Origin: Alphaproteobacteria bacterium
GTDB taxonomy: Bacteria; Pseudomonadota; Alphaproteobacteria; Sphingomonadales; Sphingomonadaceae
Direction: 5' to 3'
Length of the DNA: 64,000 nt
Assembly: GCA_019239415.1 (NCBI GenBank)
Contig: JAFAZW010000001.1
Span: 62,001-126,000 of the forward strand
Both the position numbers and the translations under genes were made by a program. Shown here one piece after another: positions 53,217 to 57,702 of this stretch; the stretch's first letter is position 1; each line of letters opens with the position of its first letter. The notes under the pieces are model-generated. The model was not told the DNA's origin and made no database searches. It saw only the letters and a program-made list of their open reading frames with translations.

Positions 53217-53618
53217 TCAGGTCGCGCAGCGCGCCGGGCGGGCGGGGCGCGGGAGGGGCCACACGCCCTCGCAGGTCCACAGATAGGAGCGGAGCGCCTC
53301 GTGCGTCTCGGCGGTGAGGCCGATGTAGCGCAGGCGGCAGTCGTCGGGATCGGACGAGCGCGCGGCGAGCCCGCGTTCGAGCAGGGCCAGGATCCAGCGG
53401 TGGGCGGTGGTGGCGGGCACCGGCGCCTCGGAGCAGAGCGTCGAGACGGTGACGCGCCGCCCCTCCTCCTCGGCGACGAACAGCAGCAGCAGCAGGTCCC
53501 AGGCCGGATCGGAAAACAGCGTCTCCCCGAAGATCCGCTCCCGCTGCCGCCGCTGCGCGATCCGCTGCCGCGCCAGCGCCCCCTCGAGCGAGAGGCTGCG
53601 GGAGGCGCAATGCTTCAC
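53217..53618 (-). CDS. MarR-like winged-helix protein flanking the quorum-sensing genes
   Basis: A 133-residue protein from a GTG at 53618 (site weak). FSDPAWDLLLLLFVAEEEGR, VTVSTLCSEAPVPATTAHRW and LRYIGLTAETHEALRSYL make a winged helix of the MarR type. It is clearly related to the protein at 55385-55936 (FADPSWDLLLEVYAAQ, LSACVPPSIAQRRSRDL). It lies 21 nt after the dioxygenase stop, so it may be the last gene of the luxI transcript. GC content is back to the chromosomal level here. Confidence 0.75.
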   Translation of the reverse strand: MKHCASRSLSLEGALARQRIAQRRQRERIFGETLFSDPAWDLLLLLFVAEEEGRRVTVSTLCSEAPVPATTAHRWILALLERGLAARSSDPDDCRLRYIGLTAETHEALRSYLWTCEGVWPLPRPARPARCAT

Positions 53619-53639: not shown

Positions 53640-54548
53640 CTAGACCAGGCGCGGCTTACGGTGTTCGAAATAATAGTCGATCGCCTCGACCTGGTCGGGA
53701 CGGAAGGCGTCGACAAATCCGAAATAGTCGGGGACGTGCTCATCGAGGAGCACAGAGGGGCTTTGCCCATCAAAATTGTTGAGGTTTGAGGGAAGCTGCT
53801 TGTAACCGACCAACTCCGCCAGCTCCTGCGAGAATTCCCGTGCGATGTGTGGTGGGTATGAGAGCATTTGGTTCTCGTACGGCTTCAACCAGCTCAAGCT
53901 ATAGCCCACGGCGAGCGCGCGTCGGATCTCCTCGCTCTCGTTCGCGCCTTGCCCATGAAGCGTCGAGCCGAGAAAGATCAGCACATCGCCTACCTCCATC
54001 TCGACAGCAATGGCGCGATCATCGGAAACGTATTCACCTATGTTCGCACGATGACTACCCTTCCATACTAGCGTCGCGCCGTTCTCGCGCGAGAAACGAC
54101 TCAGAGGCCAAATGGCATTGACCATATACTCCACCTCACCCTTTGCACCGTTCCACATGTCCTGGTCCCGATGCGGCAGCTGGGCAGGAGCCCCAGGGTG
54201 TACGGCGATCCCTTGGGTGAGATTCAACTGGATACTATCGCACCAAGGAAGCAGCACGCGCTCCGCGATGCCGAGCACGGTCGGACTCTGGATCAAGGTC
54301 CTCGCGTGATCGGACCGGAGGAGCACTCGGCCAAAGCGAACGGTTCGCTCTCCCGAAAAATTCCCCCGGCTAAACGGTGTCTGCGCAAAGCAATTGGCGA
54401 AGTCGCCATCGAGCGAGTGGATAAGGTCGGGGTCCGCGGCGCTCGGTACTACGACGAAGCCTTGGTCGAGTAGCAGAGCGGAATAGCGCTCGACGTTCGC
54501 TTCCATCGTTAGCGGATTAGGCTGGGTGGCCAAGTCTCGTCCCCTCAC
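53640..54548 (-). CDS. Phytanoyl-CoA dioxygenase (PhyH) family protein coupled to luxI
   Basis: A 302-residue Fe(II)/2-oxoglutarate oxygenase. Iron ligands: H and D in QLPHRDQDMW (about 137-146) and the distal His in STLHGQGANESE; the 2OG arginine is in RRALAVGYSLSW. The GTG start overlaps the luxI stop (GTGA), so translation is coupled; an ATG 14 codons in is an alternative. A phyH gene next to luxI is known from Sphingomonadaceae. Modification of the acyl-homoserine lactone or its precursor is an attractive inference, with no direct proof. Base composition is distinctly lower in GC than neighbours. Confidence 0.88.
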   Translation of the reverse strand: MRGRDLATQPNPLTMEANVERYSALLLDQGFVVVPSAADPDLIHSLDGDFANCFAQTPFSRGNFSGERTVRFGRVLLRSDHARTLIQSPTVLGIAERVLLPWCDSIQLNLTQGIAVHPGAPAQLPHRDQDMWNGAKGEVEYMVNAIWPLSRFSRENGATLVWKGSHRANIGEYVSDDRAIAVEMEVGDVLIFLGSTLHGQGANESEEIRRALAVGYSLSWLKPYENQMLSYPPHIAREFSQELAELVGYKQLPSNLNNFDGQSPSVLLDEHVPDYFGFVDAFRPDQVEAIDYYFEHRKPRLV

Positions 54549-55168
54549 GCAGCAAGATCTTCCCGTTCCACCATGCGAAGTACACCCGAGTGGTATTTGC
54601 CTGACGCCTGGAGGCGCCGTATCGTATCGGGCTCGATATGAACCACCAACGCGCCGACCATTGAGCCGCCCAGCATGCGCGGCATTCCCAGTGGCTCACA
54701 CCGCCAACCGGCTGACAGAACTCGGCCTAGCCAGCCGATCTCCGCCACCCCCGTGTAGGCGCGAATACCCGTCAGAAGCGCGTACTCCGTCATCGCGCTC
54801 GCGAGCAGGTTTCGATACACTATCCGCTCCGACCCCCGGTGCCGCGGTGAGAGACACATCCGAGAGATTTCACGAATGTCAGGTCCCGACGGAACAGGAC
54901 CGTCGCACAATTCTGGGAAAAGCGATCCGAGAATGTGCGTTTGATCGGTTCGGAGCAGCCGGAGCGAGGCTAAATGCTCCGACGTTTCTAGGTCCGTGAC
55001 TATGAGGTATTCGGCGGAAGCGTCGTCAAACTGGTCCCGTTCGCGGCGCCCATCGTGCGCAAGGTCCCATTTCAACAAGTCTACGAAAACGGCTTTCCGG
55101 TCCTCGTACATCCTCTGCAACAGCCGCTCATGACTGTTACGATTGCGAGCGGTAACCAGCTCGACCAT
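54545..55168 (-). CDS. LuxI-family acyl-homoserine lactone synthase
   Basis: A 207-residue protein from the ATG at 55168 (AGGGAGGGGCTCCC upstream; an ATG ten codons earlier lacks a site). The residues invariant in LuxI are present: R, F and W in DRKAVFVDLLKWDL, the acidic pair in ERDQFDD, R in ASLRLLRT, F in ILGSLFPELC, and E and R in DIREISRMCLSP. It should join S-adenosylmethionine with an acyl carrier thioester to make an AHL. Substrate chain length is not predictable. Operon with phyH. Confidence 0.94.
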   Translation of the reverse strand: MVELVTARNRNSHERLLQRMYEDRKAVFVDLLKWDLAHDGRRERDQFDDASAEYLIVTDLETSEHLASLRLLRTDQTHILGSLFPELCDGPVPSGPDIREISRMCLSPRHRGSERIVYRNLLASAMTEYALLTGIRAYTGVAEIGWLGRVLSAGWRCEPLGMPRMLGGSMVGALVVHIEPDTIRRLQASGKYHSGVLRMVEREDLAA

Positions 55169-55265
55169 GGGAGCCCCTCCCTGATTGGCCCCAATCATTA
55201 AGATGACGTCGCCGCCGCACCATCCCTCTTAAGCAGGGGGTGGGGTGGCGCTCGTAGTCCGATGT

Positions 55266-55287
55266 CACTCCCCCAATGAGGGGAGTG
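55266..55287. promoter_or_regulatory. Inverted repeat CACTCCCC-N6-GGGGAGTG in the luxI / winged-helix divergent region
   Basis: Perfect 8-bp arms, 98 bp before luxI and 97 bp before the divergent winged-helix gene. It does not look like the Vibrio lux box (ACCTGT-type). It may be an operator for either regulator, or a relative of the GGGGAG repeat arms. Confidence 0.4.
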
Positions 55288-55384
55288 CGGGAGTTGGTGT
55301 TTCAAGGTTCCTTAGTTGAAGGGTCAAAGGGAGTGGCAGCGTGGTCAAGCATGCCGTTTCAAAGCCGCCGCAAAGGGGCTGGGC

Positions 55385-55936
55385 GTGAGCCGGTCCGTAG
55401 GCGTCGTGCCGAGTGAGGCACCCCCCTCGGGCTCGGGAAGCGCGCTTGCCGACTTCGCTCGTCAACTGTGGTGGGAAAGGAGGCTGCGCAGCCGCTATTT
55501 CCCCATTGAAATATTCGCGGATCCGAGCTGGGACCTTCTTCTCGAAGTGTATGCGGCACAGATTGCAGACAAGCCAATCCGGCTGAACAAAGCACATCTC
55601 AGCGCTTGTGTCCCACCATCGATTGCACAGAGGCGATCGCGGGACCTCGTGCAGCTGGGAATCTTGGTCACAGAGCGCGCGCGAACTGATCGCCGCGGCG
55701 TCCAACTTACCCTCTCTCCGGCGGCGAGGTCGCGCCTTGAGCATCTTTTGCAATCTATCCTAGCACAACGCTACGTGCAACCACCTAAGATGATCAACGG
55801 CCGTTCTGCAAGGAAAGCAGAGTTCACTATATTACTCACTGCCCTCAAGGCAATCCGGGAAGAGATGGACAGCATGGAGCTTTGGATAGCCGGCGCATAC
55901 ATTAGTCAAGCAATAACAACCCTAGAAGAAGGCTAG
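55385..55936 (+). CDS. MarR-like winged-helix protein inside the quorum-sensing island
   Basis: A 183-residue protein counted from a GTG at 55385 (AAAGGGGC upstream); a TTG at 55316 would lengthen it. FADPSWDLLLEVYAAQIADK, LNKAHLSACVPPSIAQRRSR, LVQLGILVTERARTDRRGVQ and LTLSPAARSRLEHLLQSIL form a winged helix. The C-terminal ~45 residues (ALKAIREEMDSMELWIAG) are probably helical. It is a paralogue of the protein at 53217-53618. It is divergent from luxI and convergent with luxR. Probably a transcription regulator. Confidence 0.78.
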   Translation: MSRSVGVVPSEAPPSGSGSALADFARQLWWERRLRSRYFPIEIFADPSWDLLLEVYAAQIADKPIRLNKAHLSACVPPSIAQRRSRDLVQLGILVTERARTDRRGVQLTLSPAARSRLEHLLQSILAQRYVQPPKMINGRSARKAEFTILLTALKAIREEMDSMELWIAGAYISQAITTLEEG

Positions 55937-55945
55937 CGTCGTTGC

Positions 55946-56701
55946 TCATTTCAAAATGTCATAAAAGGTGATATCTCCATTGTAAAGAGCGTGAACCACG
56001 AGTTCGGTGCGCCGACTTACTCCACATCGTGTTCGAGCCGCATCTACATGGTCGCTAACGGTCTGCTCTTGAACGCCAAGGATTTTGGCAATTTCCCAGT
56101 CGGTTTTTCCGCGGGCGATCAGAACGACGCATTCGAGCTGTCGCATCGTCAGCTTGTGCCTGGGAGTAGCTCTCACAATCGGTTGACCCGACAGTTGGAT
56201 CTGACGGGCCGCTTCATAGGCGAAGCTGCCGACTAGTTGAGCCATAGGCAAGTTAGCCTCAGGAAGAGGCGCAGAGTCACGAACTACGAATGTGCAAGTA
56301 CCATTCGTTTCTCCGGGAATGTGCGCAGGAACACAGAAGCCATCCGTCATCCCGTCGCGACGTGTGGCCGCAAGTATCTCGCGCTGCCGGTCATTCAGCG
56401 AGATCATGTGGGGAATTTGGCTGAACCGGAAACCGACCGAGGTTCGATAACTTGCTATGTGCACAGGATCATCGCTCGTAAATTTTTGCTCAAAGAAATA
56501 TTGAAGCCACGCTCGCGAGTAATTAGAGATGGCTAGCAGTCCCTTGTTGGTCCAGCTGAAATGGTGAACGTGCTGAAATAGCGCGTAGGAGTGGAAGCCC
56601 ATCTCCAGAGTGATCGCCTCCATAATCCGGCGCAGATCATCAGCCGTACGGCATTGCCGCGACCTTTCGATGAAGACGTTAACGTCGCTCAGGCGGGACA
56701 T
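55946..56701 (-). CDS. LuxR-family regulator with autoinducer-binding domain (copy 1)
   Basis: A 251-residue protein. The N-terminal Autoind_bind domain has NYSRAWLQYFFEQKFTSDDP, where DP is the conserved pair; the Trp/Tyr positions are shifted (WLQYFF) compared with the usual W-x3-Y, and the usual distal Trp is replaced in GFRFSQIP. The C-terminal GerE helix-turn-helix is MRQLECVVLIARGKTDWEIA and ILGVQEQTVSDHVDAARTRC. It is paralogous to the gene 109 nt upstream. The start at 56701 matches the start of its paralogue. Confidence 0.92.
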   Translation of the reverse strand: MSRLSDVNVFIERSRQCRTADDLRRIMEAITLEMGFHSYALFQHVHHFSWTNKGLLAISNYSRAWLQYFFEQKFTSDDPVHIASYRTSVGFRFSQIPHMISLNDRQREILAATRRDGMTDGFCVPAHIPGETNGTCTFVVRDSAPLPEANLPMAQLVGSFAYEAARQIQLSGQPIVRATPRHKLTMRQLECVVLIARGKTDWEIAKILGVQEQTVSDHVDAARTRCGVSRRTELVVHALYNGDITFYDILK

Positions 56702-56810
56702 GGCTTTACCGTTAGAGACTGGGCAGAAACCCGACACAAACCGCGCGAGTACCCCGAGACATAGACGCGGAGAATTCGCTTTTCTTGGACATGAAAGGGC
56801 GAGTCGAGAG

Positions 56811-57590
56811 TCATCGGATGACGTCGTAAATGGTGAGCTGACCGTCAGCGATTGCGTGAATCGCGGCCTGCACACGCGTTCCTACGTCGTAGCGCTCACG
56901 GGCCGACCGGATGTGATGCTTAACCGTCTCCTGTCCGATGCCAAGAATTCGAGAAATCTCCCAGTCGCTTTTTCCCTTGGCGACCAGTGCAAGGCACTGG
57001 AGCTGCCTTGTCGTAATTGTCGGGCTCGCAACCGCAGAATTCGTAGGGTTTCCTCCCACTCTAGAAGGCGGACTCGCCGCCAGCTGAATGCGGCGCGCCG
57101 CCTCGTAGGCAAAGTTCCCAACGAGCTGCGCCATTGGAAAATTTGCCTCTGGCAGCGTAGATGTTGACCCAACGGTAAAGGTACACGAGCCGTTTATCTC
57201 TCCTGGGATGTGAGCAGGAACGCAGAAGGCGTCCACTATTCCTGCGCTCCGGGCAGCACTGAGTATCTTCTGGTGCCGCTCCGTCATGGTGATAAGAGAA
57301 GGGATCTCCGCCAGTCGAAAGCCAACTGATGTCCGATAGCTGGCCACCATGGCTGGGTCATCCTTCCCAAAATCGTTCTCAAAGAAATATTCTAGCCAGC
57401 CTCGAGAGTAGTTGGAAATCGCAAGCAGCCTGTTATTAGTCCAGCTGAAATTCTTCACATGCTGGAACAGAGCATAGGACTCGAACCCCATCTCCCGCGT
57501 GATGGCCTCCATGAGGCGGCGCAGGTCGTCGGCCGTGCGGCAGGCGCGCGATTGCGTGATGAAGGCATTCACGTCGTCCAGGCGGGACAT
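56811..57590 (-). CDS. LuxR-family regulator with autoinducer-binding domain (copy 2)
   Basis: A 259-residue protein. MSRLDDVNAFITQSRACRTA and LRRLMEAITREMGFESYALF align without gaps to copy 1. NYSRGWLEYFFENDFGKDDP and GFRLAEIPSL carry the same variant pocket. The HTH is TRQLQCLALVAKGKSDWEIS, then ILGIGQETVKHHIRSARERY. It has an 8-residue insert-rich linker (SPPSRVGGNPTNSAVASP) compared with copy 1. An upstream in-frame extension to 57644 is not supported. It follows the pyrG end by 112 nt. Confidence 0.92.
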   Translation of the reverse strand: MSRLDDVNAFITQSRACRTADDLRRLMEAITREMGFESYALFQHVKNFSWTNNRLLAISNYSRGWLEYFFENDFGKDDPAMVASYRTSVGFRLAEIPSLITMTERHQKILSAARSAGIVDAFCVPAHIPGEINGSCTFTVGSTSTLPEANFPMAQLVGNFAYEAARRIQLAASPPSRVGGNPTNSAVASPTITTRQLQCLALVAKGKSDWEISRILGIGQETVKHHIRSARERYDVGTRVQAAIHAIADGQLTIYDVIR

Positions 57591-57702
57591 GGGCACCCCT
57601 CGGCCGGTGCCGCCAATTAGCTTCGCATGCCCCGCGAGAGTCAAGCCATGTATAGCTGGATATCGCCGCCCAGTCTCGAAATAGACGGAGCCGAGCCTAT
57701 TA

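Follow-up and report, generated by a model that had tools for sequence, protein, structure and literature searches.

Pairing of luxI with a PhyH-type oxygenase gene in nearly all close relatives examined suggests that these bacteria oxidize their own quorum-sensing signal

Why would a bacterium keep an oxygenase gene directly behind the gene for its quorum-sensing synthase? The question is raised by a 64,000-nucleotide stretch of DNA from a member of the Sphingomonadaceae (the whole stretch analyzed, hereafter the window), in which luxI (54545-55168) and phyH (53640-54548) both lie on the minus strand, their open reading frames (ORFs) located as originally predicted. The luxI product is an acyl-homoserine lactone (AHL) synthase by family membership, with AHL synthesis predicted (PF00765, 49.9 bits; cut-off 24; start ATG 55168). 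Counted from 55168, it has by eye R24, F28, and W34 at those numbers, residues given as absolutely conserved in the relevant section of PMC3704786. It falls under the NCBIfam cut-offs, among them that of the TraI-type AHL synthase NF052393 (55.6 bits; equivalog cut-off 250). The phyH product is a putative 2-oxoglutarate (2OG)-Fe(II) oxygenase (PF05721, 79.6 bits; cut-off 22). In the 3.49-Mb genome, luxI is the sole PF00765 match, and phyH is among three matches to PF05721.

An ORF for a small winged-helix (MarR-like) regulator (53217-53618, minus; MarR_2 24.8 bits, slightly below the cut-off of 27) begins 21 nt past phyH and is a probable third operon gene; a comparable ORF stands directly behind phyH in three relatives (L003, L054, and L079), which the LuxI tree groups with the window. 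Upstream of luxI, two luxR-type receptor genes lie in tandem on the minus strand, the nearer copy at 55946-56875 (Autoind_bind 89 bits, GerE 41.5 bits) and the second at 56811-57644 (78.2 and 46.3 bits). Between luxR and luxI is a divergent winged-helix-like ORF (55316-55936, plus), for which a Pfam scan returned nothing at E ≤ 1. This ORF and the one at 53217-53618 flank luxI-phyH and are distant relatives (BLASTP E = 6e-9 over 70 aa).

Are luxI and phyH expressed as one unit? The original prediction derived translational coupling from a GTGA overlap between the luxI stop and the phyH start. That sequence is present at 54545-54548, but GTG as the true phyH start is less secure: the Shine-Dalgarno score for GTG 54548 is -4.0 kcal/mol, compared with -6.3 for an in-frame TTG at 54533 and none for ATG 54506, and the better site at TTG 54533 weakens the case for translation beginning within the 4-nt overlap. 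For luxI, ATG 55168 scores -10.2 and an upstream in-frame ATG at 55198 scores -5.0, making the latter the less likely start. Coupling in the form of a single operon is nevertheless borne out. Among 78 relatives, the phyH start with the best score shares bases with the luxI stop in 21 cases and lies 1-25 nt beyond it in the other 57, an arrangement that makes one operon very likely.

A lux-box-like site is conserved upstream of part of these operons. The palindrome TCCCC-N6-GGGGA, at 55269-55284 in the window, is a candidate lux box: of 80 regions upstream of luxI, 22 contain the exact pattern, which lies between -71 and -81 in 21 relatives and at -119 in the window, and 58 do not. In total, 29 copies occur in the 1,248,679 bases of the 79 loci. 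The window's own genome contains 11 such sites versus 4 for a reversed control pattern, and the motif alone is therefore weak evidence beyond its position upstream of luxI. A perfect inverted repeat, TGATTGG-CC-CCAATCA (55182-55197), the sole copy within the window, lies immediately 5' of the luxI ribosome site. One operon under a candidate lux box would also suit a regulatory explanation, in which PhyH belongs to ordinary metabolism (acting, for example, on fatty acids, terpenoids, or aromatics), is controlled by quorum sensing, and owes its place behind luxI solely to that control; quorum-sensing regulation of PhyH was indeed proposed by Hao and co-workers, as cited in the relevant part of PMC5012321. 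We consider this explanation unlikely, on grounds that come from linkage, mobility, and the recurrence of other oxygenases.

How strong is the linkage? In a search of genome contigs, luxI stands directly upstream of phyH in 78 of the best 80 of 170 relatives; in one of the other two, luxI is about 2.4-2.8 kb upstream (L020), and in the second a contig end cuts the locus (L073). As these 80 were the best-scoring relatives only, we surveyed 147 genomes across the order, in which 48 PhyH matches were found at E ≤ 1e-10, divided into strong (at least 168 bits) and weaker (at most 162 bits) ones. Strong matches lie downstream of luxI on the same strand in 31 of 32 cases (the window counted), and weaker matches are linked to luxI in 0 of 16, a difference that rules out chance adjacency. 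In all but one of the 31 linked cases, no more than 463 nt separate PhyH from the LuxI match, the remaining PhyH (G021) lying behind a P450. The exception among the 32 is a phyH that follows luxR where luxI is absent (G033). A mere regulatory target should often stand alone, and the strong matches, with one exception, do not, which argues against the metabolic-enzyme explanation. Pairing in nearly all close relatives examined suggests instead that these bacteria oxidize their own quorum-sensing signal.

Seen from the synthase, the association is narrower. Among LuxI matches of at least 40 bits, a PhyH partner is present for 19 of 24 in the window's own family and for 12 of 50 in other families of the order, leaving 5 of 24 and 38 of 50, respectively, without one. 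Across 289 genomes of the class, PhyH of the same profile adjoins, by eye, 2 of 59 LuxI matches besides the window (G149 and G221). The wider PhyH family often occurs without luxI: among the 25 class-level loci listed, 22 have neither a LuxI nor a LuxR match.

Several loci depart from the common arrangement. For four of the five unpaired own-family LuxI proteins (L099-L102), the stretches fetched contain no match to LuxR; a thymidylate synthase gene (Pfam) adjoins L099, and a gene of the same cluster adjoins L100 and L102. These four look like a different LuxI type and are possibly acyltransferases of another kind. In L097, luxR is followed by phyH with no luxI, and a lone luxI (L098) lies 86 kb off in the same genome. 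Outside the order, L148 has the arrangement luxI-phyH-luxR-luxI. The PhyH ORF at L081:7941-9464 encodes 508 aa, about 200 aa beyond the length of its relatives. ORFs of about 70-116 aa come right after luxI in L084, L088, L089, L103, L107, and L111, some of them before the oxygenase; the one scanned, in L089, had no Pfam match. A helicase-like AAA/UvrD gene (Pfam) stands behind luxI at L172:1988-3511 (minus), and in L172, L174, and L179, all of one family, such a gene or one of like size is found 40-67 nt behind luxI.

Have the two proteins diverged together? LuxI and PhyH distances correlate with a Spearman coefficient of 0.84 over 92 pairs (L095, L096, L097, and L122 omitted), the top of 999 shuffles reaching 0.28; within the own-family set of 80 members, the coefficient is 0.66 versus a highest shuffle of 0.22. 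Nearest neighbors in LuxI and PhyH agree in 46 of the 92 pairs and disagree for the window, so partners have sometimes been exchanged. On the LuxI tree, the PhyH label takes 9 changes and the P450 label 5, counts that do not distinguish among gains, losses, and transfers; bootstrap support of the first tree was unsettled, and several branches are long.

The pair is also found on mobile elements. Plasmid records with matches numbered 62, of which 51 had at least 80% query coverage, and 36 were predicted to be conjugative. In the four plasmids opened, luxI adjoins phyH in three, and a luxI remnant precedes phyH in one. Sphingobium SYK-6 pSLPG and EP60837 pEP2 have luxR-luxR-luxI-phyH ahead of virB-type genes, the order that PMC4288048, in the part concerned with gene arrangement, describes as topology T, and Variovorax PBS-H4 plasmid 3 has luxR-luxI-phyH. 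SYK-6 carries luxI-phyH on both its chromosome and its plasmid. In the Methylocystis iwaonis plasmid (L209), the luxI remnant (33 bits) lies between an IS21 element and phyH. The luxI-phyH unit travels on plasmids, into Betaproteobacteria as well, and this joint movement of the two genes again speaks against a metabolic enzyme placed behind luxI for its regulation.

Is PhyH likely to be a working oxygenase? The original prediction that it retains its Fe and 2OG ligands stands: the HxD...H triad and the 2OG-binding Arg (H126, D128, H198, and R209) are invariant across 64 aligned sequences, H126 and D128 are present in 94 of 94 family members, and the site is apparently intact. These and the following 94-member counts include the window itself, L097 although it has no luxI, and L073 although its contig ends there; L095, L096, and L122 are not among the 94. 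An NCBIfam scan of PhyH named no specific family. In SyrB2-type 2OG halogenases the iron-binding Asp is replaced; since D128 is kept in all 94 members, a halogenase is ruled out.

Outside the ligands, the window protein is unusual. The motif HRPNLG at residues 252-257 is near-universal in the luxI-linked PhyH group (H252 in 93 of 94 members), and P254, G257, and G219 are likewise each found in 93 of 94. Aligned relatives unlinked to luxI also have G219 and differ at HRPNLG, with the exception of L095, an HRPNLG protein that is unlinked on its own contig in a genome where another LuxI exists; in L124, the motif reads ERPNVG. The window PhyH alone has LPSNLN in place of HRPNLG (L252, S254, and N257), together with S219. 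By overall similarity it falls inside the LuxI-linked PhyH subfamily as defined here, and its gene lies, like the others, downstream of luxI on the same strand, but it lacks HRPNLG and G219 and is therefore an aberrant member. Given the changes from HRPNLG to LPSNLN and G219S, its activity or substrate may differ from that of the family.

What kinds of molecule might such an enzyme accept? The structure model of PhyH has a pLDDT of 88.6 overall and 63 for residues 221-230 and 251-260, a low-confidence stretch that may form a lid above the active site. The nearest folds are AndA, AusE, PrhA, SptF, and AsqJ (PDB 5zm4, 5ybl, 5ybm, 7eys, and 5oa4). AndA resembles PhyH in fold (Foldseek E = 1.8e-23, TM 0.71 by query), and all five have the iron-site motif in common with it, although identity is only about 26%. 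Their substrates, we take it, are fungal meroterpenoids and alkaloids, free small molecules that they tailor. Phytanoyl-CoA hydroxylase (2a1x) belongs to the same Pfam family as PhyH, yet its phmmer E value is 0.098 versus 2.7e-20 for AndA; PhyH is thus not a close relative of it, and we saw no sign of a CoA substrate. That the fold family handles many small molecules also leaves room for a metabolic role.

Is PhyH the only oxygenase found behind luxI? In 96 LuxI loci (36, of which 12 had been picked for PhyH, plus 60), a P450 is present in 15, representing 12 families. Every one of the 15 is on the strand of LuxI and either downstream of it or fused with it, and 13 are the next large gene on that strand, at spacings of -11 to 303 nt. 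Unfused P450s downstream of luxI account for 14 of these loci, from 11 families (L092, L103, L106, L109, L117, L151, L153, L155, L167, L171, L176, L187, L189, and L207), two of which also have PhyH, in the order LuxI, PhyH, then P450 in L207 and luxI, P450, PhyH in L092. The heme cysteine is kept in the 12 unfused P450s that were aligned at full length; a contig end cuts that of L171. The 15 genomes hold 29 P450 matches, including the 15 linked to luxI, and in 8 of these genomes the linked P450 is the only one. At an average of about two P450 genes in each genome, we estimate chance adjacency to luxI at far below 1%.

In one case synthase and oxygenase are a single protein. The P450-LuxI fusion at L186:3667-5727 (minus) is one ORF of 686 aa with both Pfam domains. 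Fusions were observed in two species of one genus (L186 and L251), with a divergent luxR alongside L186:3667-5727. The second-species copy, a single open frame, shows 96% identity to it across 685 residues, and the fusion is present in 2 of the 17 genomes available for the family. Between the two species, dN is 0.025 and dS 0.50, for a dN/dS of about 0.05. A second PhyH type also lies directly behind luxI, at L188:2221-3183 (minus) and L207:4244-5260 (plus); these two proteins are 37% identical to each other and hardly alignable to the window PhyH. The luxI-linked PhyH of G221 falls outside the HRPNLG group. In a phylum-wide sample of 30 LuxI loci (from 80 matches; the downstream stretch covered was about 1.3-1.5 kb in 29 loci and 2 bases in L246), there was no P450, and PhyH occurred only in three genomes of the window's own family, so the habit is lineage-bound.

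That unrelated oxygenases recur in this position, in one case as part of the LuxI protein itself, speaks against PhyH as a metabolic target. The same observations bear on a further explanation, that PhyH oxidizes the AHL to silence the signal or shorten its half-life, as a built-in attenuator. Co-production with LuxI would then yield delayed negative feedback, and P450 oxidation of AHL chains is cited by the authors of PMC5479921 in the passage on that subject; a P450 fused to the synthase, however, sits badly with destruction of its product, and chain oxidation by itself need not inactivate an AHL. We regard attenuation as highly improbable.

What, then, would PhyH do? Taken together, fold, linkage, recurrent oxygenases, and the P450-LuxI fusion make oxidation of the acyl chain the simplest reading, and PhyH somewhat probably acts on this chain, either in the finished AHL or in the precursor. 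The original prediction of a role in the AHL signal thus gains from the tightness of pairing among strong matches. LuxI would couple an acyl chain to homoserine lactone (its relatives make mostly 3-OH-C8, C8, and 3-OH-C10), and PhyH would oxidize that chain on the AHL, or the acyl precursor prior to transfer, to give a signal with an additional hydroxyl, double bond, or epoxide. This altered signal would be recognized by the neighboring LuxR proteins, which would in turn activate luxI-phyH through the lux box. The operon, the intact ligands, the linkage, and the conserved lux-box-like site can be seen in the sequences; what PhyH acts on, what it makes, in which order the two enzymes work, and what the receptors prefer are what we infer here.

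Published AHL profiles constrain what the product could be. A hydroxylated AHL (+16 Da) had been proposed as the reporter of PhyH activity, an idea that is not supported, because NovI yields 3-OH AHLs in hosts given luxI alone. As reported in the relevant sections of each paper, the products are 3-OH-C8, C8, and 3-OH-C10-HSL in Agrobacterium NTL4 (PMC5012321) and 3-OH AHLs from a luxI-sized insert in Escherichia coli (PMC11674143). The usual 3-OH group therefore needs no PhyH, and PhyH is rejected as its source; a product telling of PhyH would instead carry a second oxidation (dihydroxy, 2-OH, omega-1-OH, double bond, or epoxide). The NovI results also bear on the proposal that LuxI makes a non-classical N-acyl product (e.g., aryl- or amino-acid-derived) and that PhyH completes the molecule. 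In its favor, the PF00765 score of the window LuxI is low and its NCBIfam scores lie below the cut-offs, and one plasmid LuxI is annotated, by automatic label, as a 4-coumaroyl-HSL synthase; the related NovI proteins, however, make fatty AHLs, and a ligase or aryl gene is absent beside the window luxI. We think there is only a slim chance that this proposal is right.

Acyl-chain oxidation, our preferred reading, has points against it as well. Strain Rr2-17 overexpressing novI produced two uncharacterized TraR-active signals (PMC11674143, in the section on that strain), which are compatible with tailoring by PhyH without counting as evidence. The AHLs reported for SYK-6 in the corresponding part of PMC11024222 (C14, 3-OH-C6, 3-OH-C8, and trace C8) include none that requires PhyH, which counts against tailoring. 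So does, provided that PQ-2 carries phyH, the similarity of the TLC patterns given by wild-type Croceicoccus PQ-2 and by E. coli expressing only its luxI (PMC7432010). Further points against are the unpaired LuxI proteins, the common luxI-free PhyH, and the motif lost in the window.

How does the locus compare with known systems? As the original prediction stated, a luxI-phyH neighborhood is known in Sphingomonadaceae, with synteny shown in the pertinent sections of PMC3704786, PMC4288048, and PMC5012321. The window resembles this luxR-luxI-phyH synteny in gene order, bacterial family, and upstream tandem luxR, and one case in the published portion considered has a regulator gene after phyH, as here; it differs in lying on a long chromosomal-type contig with no virB among the ORFs listed and in a PhyH without HRPNLG. 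Its remark that the reaction is not established also agrees with the literature: PMC5012321, in the section concerned, calls PhyH yet to be described, and we found no reaction for a luxI-linked PhyH in open-licence literature. In Mesorhizobium japonicum, an enzyme gene likewise stands right behind luxI, 8 bp apart, in the R1-I1-crotonase circuit, where the crotonase is required for 2E,4E-C12:2-HSL (PMC10470506, in the part on this circuit). The window gene order fits such a three-gene AHL circuit; there the enzyme is a crotonase with a role tested by deletion, whereas the window has a putative oxygenase. Rhodobacteraceae strain MOLA 401 makes AHLs with two or three hydroxyls, for which the authors suggest a P450 (PMC5479921); that account, as far as its relevant section goes, draws no link between the P450 gene and luxI, and no PhyH is involved.

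We found no report of a P450 beside luxI in open-licence literature, and, as far as that literature shows, three findings are new: the quantified luxI-phyH linkage, the parallel placement of P450s, and the fusion of a P450 with LuxI. More broadly, it is possible, and we put it forward tentatively, that part of the alphaproteobacterial AHL synthases are synthase-oxygenase cassettes, in which at least two 2OG/PhyH types and P450s were recruited several times behind luxI and yield chain-oxidized AHLs, a channel apart from users of plain 3-OH-AHLs. If so, AHL profiles of sphingomonads and several other families of Alphaproteobacteria, mostly obtained against plain, 3-oxo, and 3-OH standards, would miss the real signal, and there would be an explanation for two genes whose pairing has been on record from 2013 or earlier with no reaction assigned to it. 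The P450-LuxI fusion would offer a single-protein test of oxidized signal synthesis. Oxidation would give these bacteria a route to signal privacy, and, as luxI-phyH lies ahead of conjugation genes on two of the opened plasmids, the signal may time plasmid transfer.
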